Positions 26,898 through 62,180 of a stretch of 64,000 nt of DNA are shown piece by piece. The stretch is taken from assembly GCF_032191465.1 (NCBI RefSeq), contig NZ_JAQOUE010000002.1, positions 124,001 through 188,000 of the forward strand. Direction: 5' to 3'. The notes beneath the pieces were generated by a model. The model had not been told where the DNA came from. It made no database searches and worked only from the letters and a program-made list of their open reading frames with translations. Every line of letters starts with the position of its first letter. The first letter of the stretch is position 1. This DNA comes from Candidatus Nitronereus thalassa. GTDB lineage: Bacteria > Nitrospirota > Nitrospiria > Nitrospirales > UBA8639. The translations under genes were made by a program, and so were the position numbers.

Positions 26898-28103
26898 CTA
26901 TGCCAAAATTTCCGTCACCACGCCGGCGCCCACCGTGCGCCCGCCTTCACGAACCGCAAACCGCAACCCCTGTTCCATCGCAATCGGCGAGATCAACTCT
27001 CCCGTAAACGTCGTGTTGTCCCCCGGCATCACCATCTCCACCCCTTCATTCAATTGCACGATCCCCGTCACATCCGTCGTGCGGAAATAAAACTGCGGAC
27101 GATAACCATTGAAAAACGGGGTATGCCGCCCCCCTTCTTCCTTGGTCAACACATACACCTCAGCCTTAAACTTCGTATGTGGAGTGATACTCTTCGGCTT
27201 GGCTAACACCATGCCCCGCTCCACTTCGTCTTTTTTGGTGCCCCGCAATAACGCCCCAATATTATCCCCCGCTTGCCCGTCATCTAAGACTTTCCGGAAC
27301 ATTTCCACCCCAGTCACGGTGGTGGTTTGTGTGTTGCCTAACCCGACAATTTCAATTTCATCGCCCACCTTCACTCGCCCCCGCTCCACCCGGCCCGTGA
27401 CCACGGTCCCACGGCCACTGATGGTAAACACATCTTCGATGGGCATCAGGAAGGGTTTATCAATGGCGCGCTCGGGAGTAGGAATGTAGGTGTCAATCGC
27501 TTCCAAGAGCTTTATGATGGAAGGTACGCCGATGTCACTGGTGTCCCCTTCGATGGCTTTGATGGCCGAGCCCGTAATAATGGGCACGTCATCGCCGGGG
27601 AATTGATACTTCGAGAGCAATTCCCGCACTTCCAGCTCCACTAATTCCAACAGCTCGGGATCTTCGACTTTATCCGCTTTGTTTAAAAAGACGACGATAT
27701 AGGGCACCCCCACTTGCCGGGCCAACAGAATATGTTCGCGGGTTTGCGGCATGGGCCCATCAGCAGCCGATACCACGAGGATGGCGCCATCCATTTGGGC
27801 CGCCCCGGTTATCATGTTCTTGACGTAGTCGGCATGCCCCGGACAGTCCACATGCGCGTAATGCCGATTGTCGCTTTCATATTCCACATGCGAGATGGCT
27901 ATGGTCAGGATTTTGGTCGGATCCCGTCGCCCTTGCGATTCACTCGCCTTGGCCACTTGATCATAGGAGACATAGTTGGCCATCCCCTTATCCCCCATCA
28001 CCTTCGTTAAGGCTGAGGTCAGGGTCGTCTTCCCATGGTCAACGTGCCCAATCGTCCCCACATTCAAATGCGGCTTCTTCCGATCAAATTTCGACTTCGC
28101 CAT
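26898..28103 (-). CDS. tuf: Elongation factor Tu, copy in the str operon
   Basis: EF-Tu delivers aminoacyl-tRNA to the ribosome. The G1 motif GHVDHGKT is at residues 19-26, G3 DCPGH at 86-90, G4 NKAD near 142. The switch I region (about residues 50-72) is unusual: the canonical RGITI is replaced by KILTI and a preceding SQGRRDPT stretch adds about five residues, which explains the length of 401 instead of 394-397. The SD is GGGAGGGG. The protein is identical to the copy at 43042-44247. By eye the coding DNA differs at one synonymous base (26943 against 43087) and in the stop (TAG here, TAA there). Confidence 0.98.
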
Positions 28104-28147
28104 CTGCCCCTCCCTTTACAAATGCGACTTTTCTTAGGCAATCCAAA

Positions 28148-43041: not shown

Positions 43042-44247
43042 TTATGCCAAAATTTCCGTCACCACGCCGGCGCCCACCGTGCGCCCACCTTCACGAACCG
43101 CAAACCGCAACCCCTGTTCCATCGCAATCGGCGAGATCAACTCTCCCGTAAACGTCGTGTTGTCCCCCGGCATCACCATCTCCACCCCTTCATTCAATTG
43201 CACGATCCCCGTCACATCCGTCGTGCGGAAATAAAACTGCGGACGATAACCATTGAAAAACGGGGTATGCCGCCCCCCTTCTTCCTTGGTCAACACATAC
43301 ACCTCAGCCTTAAACTTCGTATGTGGAGTGATACTCTTCGGCTTGGCTAACACCATGCCCCGCTCCACTTCGTCTTTTTTGGTGCCCCGCAATAACGCCC
43401 CAATATTATCCCCCGCTTGCCCGTCATCTAAGACTTTCCGGAACATTTCCACCCCAGTCACGGTGGTGGTTTGTGTGTTGCCTAACCCGACAATTTCAAT
43501 TTCATCGCCCACCTTCACTCGCCCCCGCTCCACCCGGCCCGTGACCACGGTCCCACGGCCACTGATGGTAAACACATCTTCGATGGGCATCAGGAAGGGT
43601 TTATCAATGGCGCGCTCGGGAGTAGGAATGTAGGTGTCAATCGCTTCCAAGAGCTTTATGATGGAAGGTACGCCGATGTCACTGGTGTCCCCTTCGATGG
43701 CTTTGATGGCCGAGCCCGTAATAATGGGCACGTCATCGCCGGGGAATTGATACTTCGAGAGCAATTCCCGCACTTCCAGCTCCACTAATTCCAACAGCTC
43801 GGGATCTTCGACTTTATCCGCTTTGTTTAAAAAGACGACGATATAGGGCACCCCCACTTGCCGGGCCAACAGAATATGTTCGCGGGTTTGCGGCATGGGC
43901 CCATCAGCAGCCGATACCACGAGGATGGCGCCATCCATTTGGGCCGCCCCGGTTATCATGTTCTTGACGTAGTCGGCATGCCCCGGACAGTCCACATGCG
44001 CGTAATGCCGATTGTCGCTTTCATATTCCACATGCGAGATGGCTATGGTCAGGATTTTGGTCGGATCCCGTCGCCCTTGCGATTCACTCGCCTTGGCCAC
44101 TTGATCATAGGAGACATAGTTGGCCATCCCCTTATCCCCCATCACCTTCGTTAAGGCTGAGGTCAGGGTCGTCTTCCCATGGTCAACGTGCCCAATCGTC
44201 CCCACATTCAAATGCGGCTTCTTCCGATCAAATTTCGACTTCGCCAT
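43042..44247 (-). CDS. tuf: Elongation factor Tu, copy in the tRNA-secE operon
   Basis: The protein is identical to the copy at 26898-28103, including the unusual switch I with KILTI in place of RGITI. The Thr that normally binds the magnesium of GTP is kept (T67). DNA identity covers the whole gene and 13-16 bases upstream, through the SD GGGAGGGG, and ends sharply on both sides. The stop here is TAA. Such near-perfect identity over 16 kb of separation indicates recent gene conversion. It stands between tRNA-Thr and rpmG. Confidence 0.98.
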
Positions 44248-44357
44248 CTGCCCCTCCCAGGGTTCTTTCTCATCCAGGAACCCATAGACACATCCCTGGC
44301 CGTTAGCTAAACGTGAGAATGTAAATTTTTCTAAAAATTATGATTCAATCGAAACCG

Positions 44358-53164: not shown

Positions 53165-54616
53165 TCAAGATTTATCGCGAAATTCCTGCTTGTCGATGTC
53201 ATACGCTTTAAGCTTACGAAGAAGCGTACGGCGACTCATACCAGCCTGATTGGCTGAATCGGCAATGCGTCCATTATTGTCAGCTAAAACGACTTCTAGA
53301 TACTCTTTCTCTAAAACCGAAAGTTGGGGTTGAAGGTAGTCTGCCAGAGTCAACGTGGGATCAATGGATGCTGACGAACAATTCTGACTTGGAAATGATC
53401 GGGCTCCGTTTTCCATTTCAGCGCTTGGCAAGGTAGATGAAACTCCTGGAATCTCTTGGGAATATAACACTTCGGTCAGATCTTCCGCGGTCAATTCCTT
53501 GGTATGACCTTTTAAGACCAGTCGTTGAGTCAGATTTTCTAATTGGCGCACATTTCCTGGCCAAGGCTGCTCCCAGAGCAAATCCATAAATGACTGATTC
53601 AATTCTGGACAGTCCATTCCATAATCTGCACAGACTTGTTTCAGAAAATGGCCAAATAAAAACAGAATGTCTTCCCGGCGTTCGCGTAACGGAGGCACCT
53701 CTAATCGAATTACATCAAGGCGATAAAAAAGATCTTCCCGAAATTGGCCAATTTGCACCGCTTGAGCCAAAGAAGCATTGGTTGCGGCAATGACTCGCGC
53801 ATCAATGGGCACTTCATGGTGAGACCCAACGGGCCGCACCGTCTGTTCTTGTAACACGCGTAACAAACTCAACTGAGTTTGAACCGGCATATCTCCAATT
53901 TCATCGAGAAGAATCGTGCCGCCATCGGCATATCGAAACAACCCCTGTTTTTGCTGATGAGCGCCAGTAAAGGCACCGCGCTCATGACCGAACAATTCCG
54001 ACTCAATAATTTCTGGATTAATAGTGCTGCAATTTACGGCCACAAATCGGCCTGTTCGTCCAGACTGACGGTGGATAGCCCTGGCGAGCAAGTCTTTCCC
54101 TGTCCCCGTTTCCCCAACAATCAACACCGTGGCATCGGAACTCGCCGTTCGGGCAATGGTTTGAAAAATATCCCACATGGTGCCATTACGGCTGAGGATA
54201 CCTTCAAAACTCCCAAATTTTTTACGAGTATCCCGAAGGTCTGAGGTATTCGAGGAAAATGTTTGATTCGCCTGAATAGTTTGAATGGTGTGTTGCAGAG
54301 TTTCCAGTGAATCCTCATACACCACATCCGCCGCCCCGCTTTTTAGAACAGCATGAACATAGCTCGCATCCGCGTCAGGTTTAAACACCAACACATCGAG
54401 ATACGGCCGACATTCCTGCAAAGCCTTGATCGTATCGAAAGTTTGGGCATCGCCAAGATTCTTACCATCTAAGATCACGAGGCGAACGTGAGCCCCGATT
54501 TGTAGAGTTTCTCCACTTACTGGCGACTCCCCACTGAAAACCTCGAAACCCATTTGAGCCAATGCATGTTCTAAATGCGGGGACCCCAGGAGGCATATTG
54601 GATAGGCTTCAGACAT
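53165..54616 (-). CDS. Sigma-54-dependent activator (NtrC type) with degenerate receiver domain
   Basis: A 483-residue enhancer-binding protein. Residues 1-120 have a receiver-like pattern, but the acidic pair is replaced by Gly-Ser (LLGSP) and the conserved Lys by Glu (VVYED), although Asp50 (VILDG) is kept, so phosphorylation control is doubtful. The AAA+ domain has Walker A GETGTGKD, the sigma-54 contact loop GAFTGA, Walker B GGTILLDEIGDM and the arginine region FREDLFYRLDVIRLEVPPLR. The C-terminus has a Fis-type helix-turn-helix (ADSANQAGMSRRTLLRKLK). It is divergent from the GNAT/ATP-grasp cassette. A palindrome abuts its ATG and there is no SD, so the mRNA may be leaderless. Confidence 0.93.
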   Translation of the reverse strand: MSEAYPICLLGSPHLEHALAQMGFEVFSGESPVSGETLQIGAHVRLVILDGKNLGDAQTFDTIKALQECRPYLDVLVFKPDADASYVHAVLKSGAADVVYEDSLETLQHTIQTIQANQTFSSNTSDLRDTRKKFGSFEGILSRNGTMWDIFQTIARTASSDATVLIVGETGTGKDLLARAIHRQSGRTGRFVAVNCSTINPEIIESELFGHERGAFTGAHQQKQGLFRYADGGTILLDEIGDMPVQTQLSLLRVLQEQTVRPVGSHHEVPIDARVIAATNASLAQAVQIGQFREDLFYRLDVIRLEVPPLRERREDILFLFGHFLKQVCADYGMDCPELNQSFMDLLWEQPWPGNVRQLENLTQRLVLKGHTKELTAEDLTEVLYSQEIPGVSSTLPSAEMENGARSFPSQNCSSASIDPTLTLADYLQPQLSVLEKEYLEVVLADNNGRIADSANQAGMSRRTLLRKLKAYDIDKQEFRDKS

Positions 54617-54634
54617 TGAGACACTATTGTCTCA
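54617..54634. promoter_or_regulatory. Palindromic operator 1 (activator binding site candidate)
   Basis: The perfect palindrome TGAGACA-CTAT-TGTCTCA abuts the start codon of the sigma-54 activator and covers the -10 box of its own promoter. The same TGTCTC half-site recurs in operator 2, centred 40 bases away (close to four helical turns). Binding here would repress the activator gene. Confidence 0.6.
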
Positions 54635-54653
54635 CAAATAAAAAATGAGTCAA
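54626..54653 (-). promoter_or_regulatory. Sigma-70 promoter of the activator gene
   Basis: On the minus strand TTGACT (54648-54653) and GACAAT (54626-54631) are separated by 16 bases. The start point would fall at about 54618-54620, two to four bases before the ATG, so the transcript would be nearly leaderless, which matches the lack of an SD. Both operators overlap it. Confidence 0.5.
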
Positions 54654-54680
54654 GTGTGTCTCATTTAGAGAGACACACTT
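54652..54680. promoter_or_regulatory. Palindromic operator 2 (activator binding site candidate)
   Basis: The perfect 11-base arms AAGTGTGTCTC and GAGACACACTT are separated by seven bases. It contains the TGTCTC half-sites of operator 1. Its centre (54666) lies 96 bases upstream of the start point predicted for the -24/-12 element at 54736, a typical distance for a sigma-54 enhancer. The stem is followed by TTTT on the plus strand, so a terminator cannot be fully excluded, but no gene ends nearby on that strand. Confidence 0.6.
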
Positions 54681-54735
54681 TTCCCATAAAATAAAATGAA
54701 AACATTAAATCGTTTATTTTCAGTAATTTAGGTTA

Positions 54736-54751
54736 TGGAATCACAATTGCT
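54736..54751 (+). promoter_or_regulatory. Candidate sigma-54 promoter 1
   Basis: TGGAATCACAATTGCT has the GG and GC dinucleotides exactly ten bases apart and the TTGC core at -12, but the -24 box (TGGAAT) is only a partial match to TGGCAC. The AT-rich 54681-54735 stretch between it and operator 2 could host a DNA-bending protein. A transcript from about 54762 would begin 396 bases before the GNAT gene. Confidence 0.45.
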
Positions 54752-54761
54752 TAATACTATC

Positions 54762-55037: not shown

Positions 55038-55053
55038 TGGCTGGCAATTTGCT
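55038..55053 (+). promoter_or_regulatory. Candidate sigma-54 promoter 2, upstream of the GNAT gene
   Basis: TGGCTGGCAATTTGCT matches the -24/-12 consensus well: TGGC at -24, TTGCT at -12, GG and GC ten bases apart. Transcription would start near 55064, giving a 94-base leader to the GNAT gene. The operators lie about 400 bases upstream of this start, long but possible with DNA looping. Confidence 0.55.
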
Positions 55054-55157: not shown

Positions 55158-55727
55158 ATGCAAAATCAATTGGAAATTGGAGAAAGACTCTATAACAGAT
55201 TTGAGTGGAAAAGACCTCAAGCACCTATACAGCTAGATATTCAACCGGCCAAACGTCACGAAATGGTCATTGCTGCGAATATTCTCCGTTCATCAGCTGA
55301 ATGGTACCGGCCTTTTCTTCACGAAAAAGATATGGCCCAGCATACGGTGGATAATACTTGGGGAGAAATGGAGTTCGACAGGCGACGCTTCTTTATTGGG
55401 CGAAACCAAGATGTCCCGGTTGGCGTAATATCCACTCAATCAGTCCAAGACATGTTTTACATCGGATACATCTATGTCTACGCCCACCAAGTAGGCAAGG
55501 GGTTCGGGCCCCAATTACTTAGTCATGTTCGTGATCTCGCTTGGGAGGAAGGTAAACGGGGTATGGTGTTGATTGCCCACCCCAAGGCAATCTGGGCCAC
55601 TCGCGCCTATACCCGCTTCGGATTTGAATGCATTGCTACTACCCGAGAGCAAGTGCTAGAGTGGCAGCAAGGTTGGCTTAAACCCTACTATGAAGAGGGA
55701 TTCCAACTGTACCAATTTCTGTTCTGA
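55158..55727 (+). CDS. GNAT-family N-acyltransferase
   Basis: GNAT enzymes transfer an acyl group from acyl-CoA to an amine. The 189-residue product has the acyl-CoA-binding motif A in YVYAHQVGKGFGPQLLSHV (Q-x-x-G-x-G) and the later strand-helix IAHPKAIWATRAYTRFGFEC. The open frame goes back 24 codons, but the ATG at 55158-55160 has AAGGG seven bases upstream. It is the first gene of the cassette, 124 bases ahead of the ATP-grasp gene. The substrate is unknown; the neighbouring ATP-grasp enzyme suggests an amino acid or peptide amine. Confidence 0.85.
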   Translation: MQNQLEIGERLYNRFEWKRPQAPIQLDIQPAKRHEMVIAANILRSSAEWYRPFLHEKDMAQHTVDNTWGEMEFDRRRFFIGRNQDVPVGVISTQSVQDMFYIGYIYVYAHQVGKGFGPQLLSHVRDLAWEEGKRGMVLIAHPKAIWATRAYTRFGFECIATTREQVLEWQQGWLKPYYEEGFQLYQFLF

Positions 55728-55851
55728 CACCAATCTCTACATACCACAATTCATCAGCAATAAAAGTTGAACACTCATTTAAATCCTCCCTCACCCTCTA
55801 GGTGCGACAGGAACGGGAAACGAGGGAACCCACACGTTGAAGGAGATCTCA

Positions 55852-57243
55852 ATGGCTAAGAAAGCCCCTAAGAAAAAGAAACCATCTGGAGGTAATAAAC
55901 CCGCGGCAGCCAAGAAAAAGGCCATCTCGAAAAAGGTATTGAGCGCGAAAAAATCCCCCAACAAAAAGAAACCAACCATCAAGAAGAAGTCGGCCATTTC
56001 GAAAAAGACACCGGACGTTAAGAAAAAACCTACCACTAAGCGAGCACCAGTCGCTCTCTTGGGATATAGTCTCGAAACCATGGAAGCCGCAAAGGAACAC
56101 AACATCCCATTTGTCGCCGTGGTTCCGGAAGGTTTCGACATTGCCCTGAAAGAAGATGGAGTTGATTGTACGACCTGGGACTTTTATATGCGGAACCAGA
56201 ATTCAGAGCGCCTTCACGAAAAACTCGTGGAGCGAGGCGTGAGCCATGCCGTCCCCCTGTATGAAGAAACCGTGGAATGGGCGGGCCAACTCAACACCCT
56301 TCTCCTCAAAGATCCCCGCGCCTTTCAACGAGCGTTGCTCTTCCGTGACAAGGCCATGATGAAACGCAACGCCCAAATGAACGGAATTCGGGTTGGTGTC
56401 TTTGAAGAAATCCGGACACCCGAAGAAGCCCTAGCCTTTTTTGAAGACATCAATGAAGCCAGGCTTCGCCTAGACGAAGAAGTGCCAGAACCCGTCCACC
56501 TTAAACCGTTATCGGCTGCAGGAAGCGTCGGGCATGTGTTTGTCCGGACCAGAGAAGACATCACTTCTCTCCCAGATGACGCCTTTCCCTGTTTGGCCGA
56601 AAGCCATTTGGCTGGACAAGAGTTTTCGGTTGAAGCCTTTATTCATCAGGGAAAAATCGAATTCATGAATATCACCGAATATGTCCATTTGGGCTATTCT
56701 CAAATCGTACCTGAAACACCGAAGCTCACCAAACAGCGCCCCAAGATTCGAAAAGCGATCGAAAAACTCATCAAAGCCTTTGGTATCACCAATGGCATGA
56801 TCCATCCTGAGTATTTCTTGGATCATGAAGGGGAGTTGCATTTTGGAGAGGTAGCAAACCGGGTTCCCGGTGGCCACATCTTCGAGCTGATTCAAAAAGC
56901 TCATGGCTTTAATCCTTACGCTGCTTTATTATTATGTTCGGATCCGAACACCACCAAACGGCAATTGGATCGATTTTTCCCGAAAGAGCGAGACCATAAG
57001 ATCTTCGCGGCCAATTTGATGGTCTACCCGCGAAAGGCCACCGTGCACCAACTCGCGTTTCCTGAAGAATTAGAGAATCACTCCTACTTTGATCGCCATA
57101 CCATGTTTGAACCTGTCACACCAAAGGTGGCAGAGCGGGTCGGGTTCGGCAACCACTATGGAACGGTATTCTTAGCAGGTGAAGACCCAGAAATATTGCG
57201 CGAACTCGTGCAGAAGTACGAGGATTATGACTTCTATGAGTGA
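55852..57243 (+). CDS. ATP-grasp ligase with histone-H1-like lysine-rich N-terminal tail
   Basis: ATP-grasp enzymes join a carboxylate to an amine or thiol through an acyl phosphate. Residues 1 to about 66 are a low-complexity tail of repeated Ala/Lys/Pro/Ser units (KKAPKKKKPSGG, KKSPNKKKPTIKKK) like the tails of histone H1. From about residue 67 comes a Rossmann-like pre-ATP-grasp domain (APVALLGYSLETMEAAKEH), then the grasp domain: FRDKAMMKRNAQMNGIRVGV, glycine loop HLKPLSAAGSVGHVFV, AGQEFSVEAFI, and the metal-binding HFGEVANRVPGG. Start chosen for AAGGAG six bases upstream of the ATG; total 463 residues. Its stop overlaps the next gene by eight bases. The substrate is unknown. Confidence 0.88.
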   Translation: MAKKAPKKKKPSGGNKPAAAKKKAISKKVLSAKKSPNKKKPTIKKKSAISKKTPDVKKKPTTKRAPVALLGYSLETMEAAKEHNIPFVAVVPEGFDIALKEDGVDCTTWDFYMRNQNSERLHEKLVERGVSHAVPLYEETVEWAGQLNTLLLKDPRAFQRALLFRDKAMMKRNAQMNGIRVGVFEEIRTPEEALAFFEDINEARLRLDEEVPEPVHLKPLSAAGSVGHVFVRTREDITSLPDDAFPCLAESHLAGQEFSVEAFIHQGKIEFMNITEYVHLGYSQIVPETPKLTKQRPKIRKAIEKLIKAFGITNGMIHPEYFLDHEGELHFGEVANRVPGGHIFELIQKAHGFNPYAALLLCSDPNTTKRQLDRFFPKERDHKIFAANLMVYPRKATVHQLAFPEELENHSYFDRHTMFEPVTPKVAERVGFGNHYGTVFLAGEDPEILRELVQKYEDYDFYE

Positions 57244-59233
57244 GACCCCTCAGGGCTCTTCAACATCTGCCTCTTCGACCACTATCGGTCGCCACGAAAA
57301 AGCCTTTCTTCATGCCCTAGAAGAATTGGAGCAAGCTACGCTTTTTGCCAAACCCAAATACCAAACAGAATTTTTTCGTCGGGCCACGGATTTGTTTGAG
57401 AGTGACCAAGGGATCCAATTCGTCAGAGCACAAGCCCACCGTTTCGATTCTGCAGGAGTTTTTCATGCCGGGCCCTGGGAACATCCGGATCGGTTAATGC
57501 CAGAATTAGTTGGGGGCGGGTTGCGAGCCGAAGGAGAATACTCCTCCATCGAAATAGTAAGTGAGCTTCGCGTGATGTCCCTGGCGGCAGGAGAATCTAC
57601 ACATGCAGCAATGACCAAGGAGCAAGCCCAATCCTTTTTACAAACGGTCATGGGACTGAATCTCGACTTACTGTACGGTAGCGAAACGGAAGAATCCCGC
57701 CTCCGTCCCAAAGTCTTTGCACGCGCGCGACGACTGCTCGCATTGATTGAGCAAGAGGTGTCTACCGGTGGATTGCTGGAACATGTGCTCGACGATATCG
57801 ATCAACGCGTCTCGCAACGGCCTATTGATGTCAGCCTGACCTTGAATATGATTGAACAAGCCAAAAATATTCCAGGCGATCCAGAACCCAAGCAGGTTGC
57901 ACGCCTGAACAGATTTCTTAAAGCGACGGGAAGCCCAACGCCTCTCGCCGAGAAAGCCCAAACCCCAGCGAATTATCGAAATCTCTTAACTAAGGCCACC
58001 AACCATGAGATCGAAAACGAGGCCAAGGTCGCAGGAAAACTCTTAACCCTTACCGGACTGTCCAGTGAATACCATGTGGCACTGATTCAGCATCTCCTTA
58101 ATAAAGATGACACCGACATCCTAGCCTTTGCCTTAGATTTGACCGAAGCTGGACAGGCCCACATGGAACAATATCGCGATCAGGTATTGGAGTTGCTCCG
58201 TCTGACCATCCATCCCGCCACCAGTTGGGTCATTTATGGATTTCAGCAATTTTTGGAACGAACGCTGTTAGCTCGCGCAGAGGTGGCAGATGGTCTCACA
58301 AAACTAACAAACCTCGATTTATGTGCGACTGCCCAACAAGTCATTAAAAAACCCTTGCCTAGAGGTTCAGGAATCAACGCAAACGCAGCACTTGTGGGAG
58401 GAGCCATCGCGATGTTGGGACAGCCCTTAGGTGTCGGGCAAGGAAACAATCCAACCTGTCAGGGTGCTCGTGCATTAAGCCTCTGGAGTCTGCATGATCC
58501 TGGATATTTACTCCAATTACTCACCAGTGCGGCCCGTGACGATACCGTTGAAATGTTGTTTGAGGGAGCCCCGATTTTCTCGGGGGCCATCGCAGGAGGA
58601 GTCGCGGCGGGTAAATTTGATTTGAGACTCGATCCGGTTTCACGCGTTCTGGTGCCCCATCTTGATCGCATTTATGATGAAATGATGCGACGGGCCGCAT
58701 TGCGTGGGGAAGATCCTCACAAATGGGTCAACCCAGCCCTTTACGGACGTTGGGTTCCAAACAGTTTAGCATCCCCCTTCAATCTCATTAATCTGAATGT
58801 GGTGGGATACGAAGAATTTGTTCGGCTATTTTATGCGACCCATCACCCATCCTACGATGGCGGGCACGATCTGATCTACCCCAATCCCGTAGGGTTACTG
58901 ATTACCAACATTCATGGGAAATTTTTAGGGTATCATGCCGTTTCCATTCAGAGAGTCGCGGAAGATGACGAAGGCAATGTCCGGGTCTATTTTTTTAATC
59001 CCAACAACGAGGGACGTCAAAATTGGGGAAAAGGCGTCGAGCCCAGTGTGGTTGGTCATGGAGAAATTCCAGGGGAATCTTCACTGCTCTTTGCACACTT
59101 TGCCGCACACCTCTATGCCTTTCATTACAATCAGATGGAAGTAGGAGATTTGAAGGCGGTACCGGCAGAAATCATTACTGAAGTGACGGAACATGCCCAG
59201 GGAACCTGGGGAACAGCCTTTACTTGGTTATAA
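57236..59233 (+). CDS. Uncharacterised protein with possible Cys-His-Asn site
   Basis: I do not recognise this 665-residue family. The N-terminal half (to about 380) is helical, with repeat-like stretches (LTGLSSEYHVALIQHLLNKD). The C-terminal half contains GQGNNPTCQGARALSLWS with Cys408, later FLGYHAVSI with His567, and VYFFNPNNEGRQNW with Asn588. A Cys at the start of a helix, then His, then Asn on strands is the order of papain- and transglutaminase-like enzymes, so a thiol hydrolase or acyl-transfer activity is possible, but this is inference. The ATG overlaps the ATP-grasp stop by eight bases, so the two are co-translated. No signal peptide or membrane span is seen. Confidence 0.75.
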   Translation: MSETPQGSSTSASSTTIGRHEKAFLHALEELEQATLFAKPKYQTEFFRRATDLFESDQGIQFVRAQAHRFDSAGVFHAGPWEHPDRLMPELVGGGLRAEGEYSSIEIVSELRVMSLAAGESTHAAMTKEQAQSFLQTVMGLNLDLLYGSETEESRLRPKVFARARRLLALIEQEVSTGGLLEHVLDDIDQRVSQRPIDVSLTLNMIEQAKNIPGDPEPKQVARLNRFLKATGSPTPLAEKAQTPANYRNLLTKATNHEIENEAKVAGKLLTLTGLSSEYHVALIQHLLNKDDTDILAFALDLTEAGQAHMEQYRDQVLELLRLTIHPATSWVIYGFQQFLERTLLARAEVADGLTKLTNLDLCATAQQVIKKPLPRGSGINANAALVGGAIAMLGQPLGVGQGNNPTCQGARALSLWSLHDPGYLLQLLTSAARDDTVEMLFEGAPIFSGAIAGGVAAGKFDLRLDPVSRVLVPHLDRIYDEMMRRAALRGEDPHKWVNPALYGRWVPNSLASPFNLINLNVVGYEEFVRLFYATHHPSYDGGHDLIYPNPVGLLITNIHGKFLGYHAVSIQRVAEDDEGNVRVYFFNPNNEGRQNWGKGVEPSVVGHGEIPGESSLLFAHFAAHLYAFHYNQMEVGDLKAVPAEIITEVTEHAQGTWGTAFTWL

Positions 59234-59546: not shown

Positions 59547-60809
59547 TTGCCTGAAATTCAGCATCCATCCCCTCCTGAGTCATCCCCTCCTCGAATTGAA
59601 AACAAGGGCCAGGGCCCACTGCTTTGGTTCATGGTTATCGGTGCGCTTGCCGGGGGAGTCCTTGGAGCCATGGCTCCCGAGGCCGCTCAACACGTTGTCG
59701 TCCTTGGAGATCTGTGGATTCGAATGCTCCAGATGCTCGTGGTTCCCTTGATCATCTCATCTATTATCCAAGGAGTAGGCTCCTTGGGGGATATTCGCCA
59801 TTTGGGAAGATTGGGTGGTGTCACAGTGGCGTATTATCTGATCACTTCAGGACTCGCCATTATTCTGGGGATGATTCTCGTCAAACTGATTCAACCTGGT
59901 GTAGGTGCCGATATCACCGCTGCAGTAGCCCCGCTCGGGACCGAGGCGGCAGTAAAACATGGTTGGATTGATCTGTTACGAGGATTTATTTCTCCCAATA
60001 TTTTCGCATCCGCCACCCAAGGAGATCTCCTGCCCTTGGTGATATTTTCCCTCGCCTTTGGAGCAGTCCTAACGACCGTTGGGGAAAAGGGCCAGTTAGT
60101 CATCAACATCTTTGAAGGCATCTTTGCTGCCATCATGAAGCTGGTCCATCTCGTAATGTGGATCGGCCCCATCGGAGTGTTTGGATTGGTCGCCGGCCGC
60201 CTGGCCATTGCGGGCGGCAGTGAGGGCATTGTCGCGCTCTTAGTAGGCCTCGGATTATTCACGATCACGGTTATCGTCGGACTAGTCATCCATGCGGGGA
60301 TCAGCCTGGGACTGATTTTACATCTAGCCGGCCAGCGCCATCCCTTTACGTATATGGGCTTTCTAGGCGCGGCCCTCACCAGTGCATTTGCTACGGCAAG
60401 TTCATCGGCCACCCTGCCCTTGACTATGGAAGGGGTTGAACGCGCCGGTATCAGGACACGATCCAGTCGGTTTGTCCTCCCGATTGGAGCCACGGTCAAC
60501 ATGGACGGATCGGCTTTATACGAAGCGGTCGCAGCCGTGTTTATTGCCCAAGCTTGGGGAATTGATTTACCAGTGACCGCCCTTATGGCTCTATTCATTG
60601 TGGCCACCGTATCAACCATCGGAGCGGCGGGAATTCCCGAAGCGGGTCTGGTTACCATGGTGGTCGTCTTACAAGCAGTTGGGTTGCCTCTTGAAGGATT
60701 AGGACTGCTTTTAGCCATCGACTGGCTAATTGATCGATTCAGAACCGCCGTAAATGTGTGGGGTGACGCCGTCGGAGCAGCGGTTGTGGACCGGTATGTT
60801 CCAGGCTAA
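59547..60809 (+). CDS. Dicarboxylate/amino acid:cation symporter (DAACS/SDF family)
   Basis: This family imports glutamate, aspartate, succinate and related solutes with H+ or Na+. The substrate-binding hairpin motif SSSATLPLTMEG, the NMDGSALYEAVAAVFIAQ segment of span 7 and the second hairpin (VSTIGAAGIPEAGLVTM) are all present, with about eight membrane segments. Length 420 residues. The start is a TTG with AGGT some way upstream; the proline- and serine-rich N-terminus before the first span looks unusual but is in frame. As the last gene of the cassette it may supply a carboxylate or amino-acid substrate. Confidence 0.92.
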   Translation: MPEIQHPSPPESSPPRIENKGQGPLLWFMVIGALAGGVLGAMAPEAAQHVVVLGDLWIRMLQMLVVPLIISSIIQGVGSLGDIRHLGRLGGVTVAYYLITSGLAIILGMILVKLIQPGVGADITAAVAPLGTEAAVKHGWIDLLRGFISPNIFASATQGDLLPLVIFSLAFGAVLTTVGEKGQLVINIFEGIFAAIMKLVHLVMWIGPIGVFGLVAGRLAIAGGSEGIVALLVGLGLFTITVIVGLVIHAGISLGLILHLAGQRHPFTYMGFLGAALTSAFATASSSATLPLTMEGVERAGIRTRSSRFVLPIGATVNMDGSALYEAVAAVFIAQAWGIDLPVTALMALFIVATVSTIGAAGIPEAGLVTMVVVLQAVGLPLEGLGLLLAIDWLIDRFRTAVNVWGDAVGAAVVDRYVPG

Positions 60810-60926: not shown

Positions 60927-62180
60927 ATGGAAACGACATTTACCTATCAAAAAATTGCATCTCACGAAGCCCGCAAGGGAACCTTTGATACATGCGTATT
61001 ACTCTATTCCGGCGGGTTGGATACGTCCATTATGCTCAAATGGATTGCCGAGGCCTACAACTGTTCGATCGTGGCGCTGACCGTCGATGTCGGGCAACTG
61101 CATGAAGATCTTGAAGCCGTCAAAGCCAAGGCCATCAAACTTGGGGCCAAAGAAGCGGTCGTCGTCGATGCTCGTGAGGAATTTGCGGAAAAATTGTTAT
61201 CGCGTGCCATTAAAGCCAACGCGGATTATCAGGGAGGATACCCCCTTTCCACCCCTCTTGCACGGGTCACGCTTTCGGAAATAGCCGTTCGTGTCGCCCA
61301 AGAACGTGGCATCAAGGTCATTGCCCATGGCTCCACGGGCAAAGGCAACGATCAGGTTCGTTTTGAAAATTACATTACGACGTTAGATGCCACCATGAAA
61401 GTTATCGCCCCGGTCCGCGAGTGGAGCATGGGGCGGGACGAACAGATTGACTATGCCAAACAACACGACATCCCGATTAAACAAAATAAACAATACCTGT
61501 ACTCCCATGATGACAATATGTGGGGATCAACGAATGAAGGCGGAGACATTGAAAACCCGGCCTGCATTCCTGATCTCAACAAATTTCTCCAGGTTTGCGT
61601 TCCACCGGAGAAAGCCCCCGATGCAGCCGAAGTCCTCACTGTGGGTTTTTATAAGGGTGTTCCTTGTTCTATCAATGGGGAAGACCTTTCCCTGTCACAA
61701 GTTATCGAACAGGCGAATACCGTTGGCGCCCGACATGGGGTTGGCATTGTGCATTTAACGGAAGATCGACTGGTTGGGCTGAAGGTTCGCGGAGTGTATG
61801 AAGCTCCTGGCGCGGAGATTTTAATCAAGGCTCATTTCAATTTAGAAAAGTTGGTCAACACTCGCGACCTCAATGAACTAAAAAAACTTCTCGACGAAAA
61901 ATGGGCATACATGTGTTACGGCGCAAAATGGTATGACCCTTCCATGGATGCCATTCACGCCTTCCAAGACTCCGCCAACCAATATGTCAATGGAACCGTC
62001 AAAGTGAAGCTCTACAAAGGGAAGGCCGAGGTTGTCGCTATGGAATCACCCCACTCCCTATTTGATAGCAACTTGGCGACCTTTAATAAGGATGCAAGTT
62101 TCAACCAGAATGCGTCCGCGGGTTTTATTGAAATTTACAATTTGGCGCAAAAAACCTATCGACGATTACATCAAAAATAA
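60927..62180 (+). CDS. argG: Argininosuccinate synthase
   Basis: It condenses citrulline and aspartate with ATP in arginine biosynthesis. The PP-loop SGGLDTSIMLKW is near residue 29, with ALTVDVGQ after it and the citrulline/aspartate block AHGSTGKGNDQVRFE in the middle. Length 417 residues, normal for the type II-like argG group. It has its own spacer of 117 bases (no clear promoter found) and a strong terminator. Its other arginine-pathway partners are not in the window. Confidence 0.97.
   Translation: METTFTYQKIASHEARKGTFDTCVLLYSGGLDTSIMLKWIAEAYNCSIVALTVDVGQLHEDLEAVKAKAIKLGAKEAVVVDAREEFAEKLLSRAIKANADYQGGYPLSTPLARVTLSEIAVRVAQERGIKVIAHGSTGKGNDQVRFENYITTLDATMKVIAPVREWSMGRDEQIDYAKQHDIPIKQNKQYLYSHDDNMWGSTNEGGDIENPACIPDLNKFLQVCVPPEKAPDAAEVLTVGFYKGVPCSINGEDLSLSQVIEQANTVGARHGVGIVHLTEDRLVGLKVRGVYEAPGAEILIKAHFNLEKLVNTRDLNELKKLLDEKWAYMCYGAKWYDPSMDAIHAFQDSANQYVNGTVKVKLYKGKAEVVAMESPHSLFDSNLATFNKDASFNQNASAGFIEIYNLAQKTYRRLHQK

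Follow-up and report, generated by a model that had tools for sequence, protein, structure and literature searches.

A papain-like protein paired with an ATP-grasp ligase in an operon that points to an undescribed small-molecule biosynthesis

Organization of the locus

The window, a DNA stretch of 64,000 nucleotides, contains an operon read on the forward strand and a divergent regulatory gene upstream of it. The features discussed below, numbered from the first letter of the window, are as follows.

53165–54616, reverse strand: NtrC-type sigma-54-dependent activator, divergent; below the NtrC cut-off and assigned at family level only; divergent place conserved
54617–54634, no strand: palindrome TGAGACA-N4-TGTCTCA, candidate activator site; conserved among relatives
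54736–54750, forward strand: candidate sigma-54 promoter, TGGAATCACAATTGC; no variation at the core columns in seven of seven relatives
55158–55727, forward strand: GNAT-family N-acetyltransferase (PF00583); place kept in the Nitrospira relatives and in locus L047
55852–57243, forward strand: ATP-grasp ligase (PF13535, above cut-off); RizA (4wd3) the best solved match; conserved residues
57236–59233, forward strand: papain-like protein, 665 residues; helical N-terminal domain (about residues 11–395) and catalytic C-terminal domain (about 376–665)
58439–58441, forward strand: codon for Gln402, six residues ahead of Cys408
58457–58459, forward strand: codon for Cys408, proposed nucleophile
58934–58936, forward strand: codon for His567, proposed general base
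58997–58999, forward strand: codon for Asn588, proposed orienting residue
59268–59537, forward strand: 89-residue protein; no Pfam or NCBIfam match; conserved in the Nitrospira relatives
59547–60809, forward strand: DAACS-family (DctA/GltP-like) dicarboxylate or glutamate transporter; below the curated cut-offs; place conserved
60927–62180, forward strand: operon-type argininosuccinate synthase ArgG (TIGR00032, above cut-off); co-distributed with the ATP-grasp and papain-like pair

The papain-like gene begins with the ATG at 57236 and ends with the stop codon at 59231–59233, and the frame, coordinates and residue numbers of the first-pass annotation were found to be correct. The ATP-grasp reading frame is open from a TTG at 55837, with its likely start at the ATG at 55852, while that of the GNAT is open from 55086, with a start at 55158 suggested by the alignment of relatives. 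The ATP-grasp stop overlaps the papain-like start by 8 nt (ATGAGTGA, 57236–57243). The same overlap is present in a Nitrospira relative (L002), in which the ATP-grasp frame ends at 1508 and the papain-like match starts at 1501; in other lineages the two genes are mostly separated by a short gap, with no overlap. The order GNAT, ATP-grasp, papain-like protein, 89-residue protein, DAACS transporter and argG is kept in three genera, the 89-residue frame having been left uncalled in one genome of this comparison.

Between the divergent activator and the operon, the region 54600–54760 contains further inverted repeats besides the palindrome. A sigma-54-like match at 55038, beside the GNAT start, was rejected: unlike the match at 54736, it is not conserved.

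The pair of ATP-grasp and papain-like genes is patchily distributed, occurring in nine of 60 Nitrospira relatives and in 31 of 118 Cyclobacteriaceae, and among the Nitrospira relatives strong matches to the operon argG DNA occur in the nine genomes with the pair and in no others. The encoded ArgG and the native ArgG of the Nitrospira family share about 39% identity. The genome under study (G000) and two others (G017 and G020) have no second ArgG above the family cut-off, and in all five pair-negative genomes that have an ArgG above the cut-off it is of the native type. That these three genomes have only the operon type, with the native type in the pair-negative genomes, suggests that the operon probably arrived with its own, foreign-type argG, which would have replaced the native gene. 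We note that the whole operon is also present at L190 (G009:C1:255000–272000), where the ATP-grasp and papain-like genes are frameshifted, by decay or assembly error; this genome has both operon-type and native ArgG. The wider operon, with its acetyltransferase, argG, transporter, NtrC-type regulator and sigma-54-like promoter, lay outside the first-pass annotation and points to small-molecule biosynthesis.

Active site and predicted fold of the papain-like protein

The protein had first been described as unrecognised, with residues Cys408, His567 and Asn588 in an order common to papain- and transglutaminase-like folds. In an alignment of 87 homologues from several phyla, with identities down to 32%, these three residues are invariant in all 87 sequences, as is a fourth, Gln402, which the earlier description had not included. 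A glutamine six residues ahead of the cysteine is the spacing of Gln19 and Cys25 in papain, and by analogy with papain Gln402 may contribute to an oxyanion hole. The invariance of the Cys, His and Asn favours a catalytic site, and the predicted catalytic order of Cys, His and Asn, with a Gln six residues before the Cys, is the order by which clan CA is recognized. Residues of the N-terminal half are also under constraint in this alignment.

A full-length AlphaFold2 model, built from a 55-row alignment, has a mean pLDDT of 90 and a pTM of 0.85. Residues 11–395 are almost entirely helical in the model and give only weak helical-repeat fold matches, in agreement with the earlier view that the N-terminal half is helical and unlike anything recognised. 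A helix (408–420) begins at Cys408, His567 lies within a strand (563–576) and Asn588 immediately follows another (582–587), as in papain. Modelled separately (pLDDT 88), the C-terminal domain gives overwhelmingly papain-clan matches among the 50 PDB matches listed, of which the best is calpain (E = 0.006, probability 0.92) and others are a C1 dipeptidyl aminopeptidase, staphopains, bleomycin hydrolase, cathepsins and bromelain. The E-values of these papain-clan matches are modest and their TM-scores low, and they are weaker in other fold searches. Not one of the 50 matches listed is a transglutaminase, and the Asn is never an Asp in the 87 sequences. Of the two kinds of enzyme suggested earlier, a papain-type Cys-His-Asn site is supported by the invariant residues and by the papain-clan matches, with the low TM-scores leaving the papain fold itself as probable; transglutaminase is rejected.

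As regards sequence, the protein matches no Pfam or NCBIfam model at E ≤ 1 and no PDB sequence at E ≤ 5, and 55 aligned homologues are likewise without a Pfam match. Compared by profile with C1 proteins, it showed no homology (probability 1.7%), which is a weak negative as the C1 set included some misread rows. By these searches (Pfam for the protein and its 55 homologues, and the C1 profile) no sequence homology to any named clan CA family was found. The protein thus shares with clan CA enzymes (C1 papain, C2 calpain, C47 staphopain) the order Gln, Cys, His, Asn, the Gln–Cys spacing of six, the cysteine that opens a helix and its best fold matches, but differs from them in lacking sequence-profile similarity, in its helical N-terminal domain of about 390 residues and in being paired with an ATP-grasp gene. 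In our view, it probably works like the papain-clan enzymes and belongs to no named family; it may have descended from them.

We also observed a second, shorter paralogue (about 608 residues) with the same active site intact near the first in five Bacillaceae loci (L025, L035, L046, L048 and L056). At L048, argC-argJ-argB lies between the two paralogues.

The ATP-grasp partner and neighbouring genes

Immediately upstream of the papain-like gene there is an ATP-grasp gene in 78 of about 82 loci with enough flanking sequence (74 by ORF clustering and four by tblastn). Pairwise distances of the two proteins correlate with r = 0.74, compared with at most 0.17 in 100 shuffles, a figure to which the shared ancestry of the hosts contributes. 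This adjacency and co-divergence support the joint function that had been suggested from the overlap of the two genes. No description of such a pair was found in the literature searched.

The pairing bears directly on whether the protein could be an ordinary cytoplasmic cysteine peptidase that merely lies beside the ligase gene. Its papain-type catalytic residues and fold matches to peptidases are what such an enzyme would show, but persistence of the pair across phyla, co-divergence with the ligase, constraint on the N-terminal residues and the lack of sequence similarity to peptidase families argue against it, and we regard this explanation as very improbable.

Four papain-like homologues (L057, L058, L062 and L065) have no adjoining ATP-grasp gene; L057 and L058 are each the second copy of a genome whose other copy is paired (L041 and L053). 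An apparent Rosetta-stone fusion, a 1138-residue frame in L045, proved to be an ORF-calling artefact, the ligase there being a separate gene in another frame.

In the ATP-grasp partner Glu325, Glu338, Arg342 and Lys residues are invariant in the homologue alignment, and the nearest solved relative is RizA (PDB entry 4wd3; profile E = 7e-12), a distant match to part of the protein. The partner is predicted from these features to be an ATP-grasp enzyme of the L-amino-acid-ligase type. RizA forms dipeptides with an N-terminal arginine (Arg-X; PMC9321006). It differs from the partner described here in having no known need of a papain-like protein. The ATP-grasp protein is also extended at its N-terminus by about 60 residues (55852–56040), rich in Lys and Ala and similar to histone H1, which are missing in all ten aligned homologues.

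Four kinds of acetyltransferase adjoin the pair in different lineages. The GNAT lies upstream of it in the Nitrospira relatives and in a deltaproteobacterial MAG, two other GNAT types are found at Neobacillus-like and Cyclobacterium loci, and in eight Bacillaceae loci the adjoining gene encodes AblB (above the TIGR03827 cut-off). AblA is the lysine 2,3-aminomutase that makes β-lysine, and AblB the acetyltransferase that completes the salt-protectant N-ε-acetyl-β-lysine. The Bacillaceae loci share AblB with this system but differ from it in that AblA above the cut-off is missing in five of the six searched genomes in which AblB adjoins the pair; wherever AblA is present, an AblB lies close to it. 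The absence of AblA suggests that the pair-adjacent AblB probably acetylates an amine other than β-lysine; ornithine or lysine would fit. No AblB was found in G000.

Arginine-pathway genes (argB, C, D, J or G) lie near the pair at L016/L018, L019, L046, L047, L048, L069–L071 and the Cyclobacterium loci, and an alanine-racemase family protein adjoins it in 22 loci, mostly in Bacteroidota. The neighbours vary by lineage, and many Bacillaceae loci consist of the pair alone. These surroundings also bear on a protein-tagging role, in which a protein or peptide would receive an amino acid from the ATP-grasp enzyme and lose it again through the papain-like one. ATP-grasp ligases and papain-like isopeptidases do this elsewhere, and the helical domain, with its weak helical-repeat matches, could bind a protein. 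The neighbours are metabolic, however (arg genes, GNATs, AblB and an amino-acid transporter), and no small target gene conserved across lineages was seen beside the pair, so that we consider protein tagging improbable.

Distribution and proposed function

The genome contig scan found relatives of the papain-like protein in at least 580 genome stretches, of which the best 80 were kept for further analysis; their hosts belong to Nitrospirota, Bacillota, Bacteroidota, Gemmatimonadota, Pseudomonadota and other phyla. These stretches encode an enzyme named by neither Pfam nor NCBIfam. The protein was not found in viral contigs, and plasmid records gave a single match, on a 1.8-Mb Halomonas replicon; a viral or plasmid origin was rejected on these grounds.

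Taken together, the papain-type site, the pairing with a ligase, the arginine and ornithine genes and the acetyltransferases favour a small-molecule role, and the protein probably helps to make a small, acetylated compound of amino acids, which may be a salt-protectant, rather than digesting proteins. With the residue arrangement confirmed and its interpretation narrowed to the papain type, the setting points to an undescribed small-molecule biosynthesis. The explanation that we favour is a cytoplasmic papain-type acyl-enzyme, a transferase or hydrolase, that acts with the ligase on a small acetylated ornithine- or arginine-derived compound, possibly a compatible solute; we give it about an even chance of being correct. 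It is weakened by the modest fold E-values and low TM-scores, the lack of C1 homology, the variable neighbours and the Bacillaceae loci that hold the pair alone.

In such a scheme the ligase would convert the carboxylate of one amino acid into an acyl phosphate and couple the acyl group to the amino group of another; ornithine or arginine is probably one of these two substrates. Cys408 would then attack an amide of this small product to give an acyl-enzyme. From there the acyl group would go either to a further amine, in a transacylation, or to water, so that a protecting amino acid is removed. The GNAT or AblB could add the acetyl group before or after the Cys408 step, and the product would be a small acetylated molecule, either a derivative of ornithine or arginine or a dipeptide, which could plausibly serve salt-adapted bacteria as a compatible solute.

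Known pathways offer partial parallels. NAGGN, an acetylated dipeptide that serves as an osmolyte, is made by GNAT and ATP-grasp activities together with an amidating enzyme (PMC8070244). The recurrent set described here, an amino-acid ligase, an N-acetyltransferase, ornithine or arginine supply and sometimes a racemase, resembles the logic of the NAGGN operon (asnO-ngg; PA3459–PA3461), which combines a GNAT, an ATP-grasp and an amide-handling enzyme, but here there is no AsnO and the GNAT and ATP-grasp are separate proteins. The ATP-grasp partner does not match TIGR03103 (Ngg, the fused GNAT and ATP-grasp protein), and a true ngg is present elsewhere in the same genome (G000:C2:3521–5149), so that the operon of the pair would be a parallel system. 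In the butirosin pathway, BtrH-type acyl transfer occurs alongside an ATP-grasp ligase. The resemblance to BtrH lies in a papain-like fold and in a pathway that likewise includes an ATP-grasp ligase, and the difference in the BtrH_N model (PF14399), which is unmatched at E ≤ 1 by the papain-like protein or its 55 aligned homologues. Both BtrH and phytochelatin synthase are papain-like folds known as acyltransferases (PMC10318531).

The same chemistry could serve another purpose, with a specialised dipeptide or secondary metabolite of the bacilysin or dapdiamide kind as its product instead of an osmolyte. The L-amino-acid-ligase type of the partner, the patchy distribution and the racemase in Bacteroidota would all suit this alternative. 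It is opposed by the small core kept over many phyla, which lacks the tailoring or resistance genes that antibiotic pathways usually have, and by the pair-adjacent AblB, from a family known in osmolyte synthesis; we consider it unlikely.

The proposed link of the pair to salt is tentative. The named hosts among the best matches, a list biased to such matches, we take to be mostly marine, saline or soda-lake bacteria; some, Neobacillus and Lysinibacillus, are not halophiles, which counts against a link with salt. In Cyclobacteriaceae, comparison of proteome acidity with the presence of the pair gave p = 0.15–0.23. Among the Nitrospira relatives, Na+-NQR, tried as a marine marker, occurs in genomes other than those with the pair. 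Ectoine synthase was found in none of the pair-bearing genomes and in one genome of the same genus that lacks the pair, a comparison of too few genomes to carry weight.

Our fuller proposal, possible though rather unlikely, is an undescribed, widespread pathway to a compatible solute that is acetylated and contains ornithine or arginine. The ligase-joined acyl group would be passed on or released by a new family of papain-like enzymes, distinguished by their unique helical domain. If the small-molecule reading is right, many phyla would use a papain-like fold, next to an ATP-grasp ligase, for making small molecules, and there would be a testable gene set for acetylated amino-acid solutes that so far lack assigned genes. 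The N-δ-acetylornithine pathway of Halobacillus halophilus has been described as still to be elucidated, with its acetyltransferase unidentified (PMC4187189). In Halobacillus-type bacteria the gene set of the pair could supply the missing steps to this compound, as a candidate and no more.

Elsewhere in the window, two EF-Tu (tuf) copies at 26899–28114 and 43043–44258 are 99.9% identical over 1216 bases, an ordinary gene duplication.
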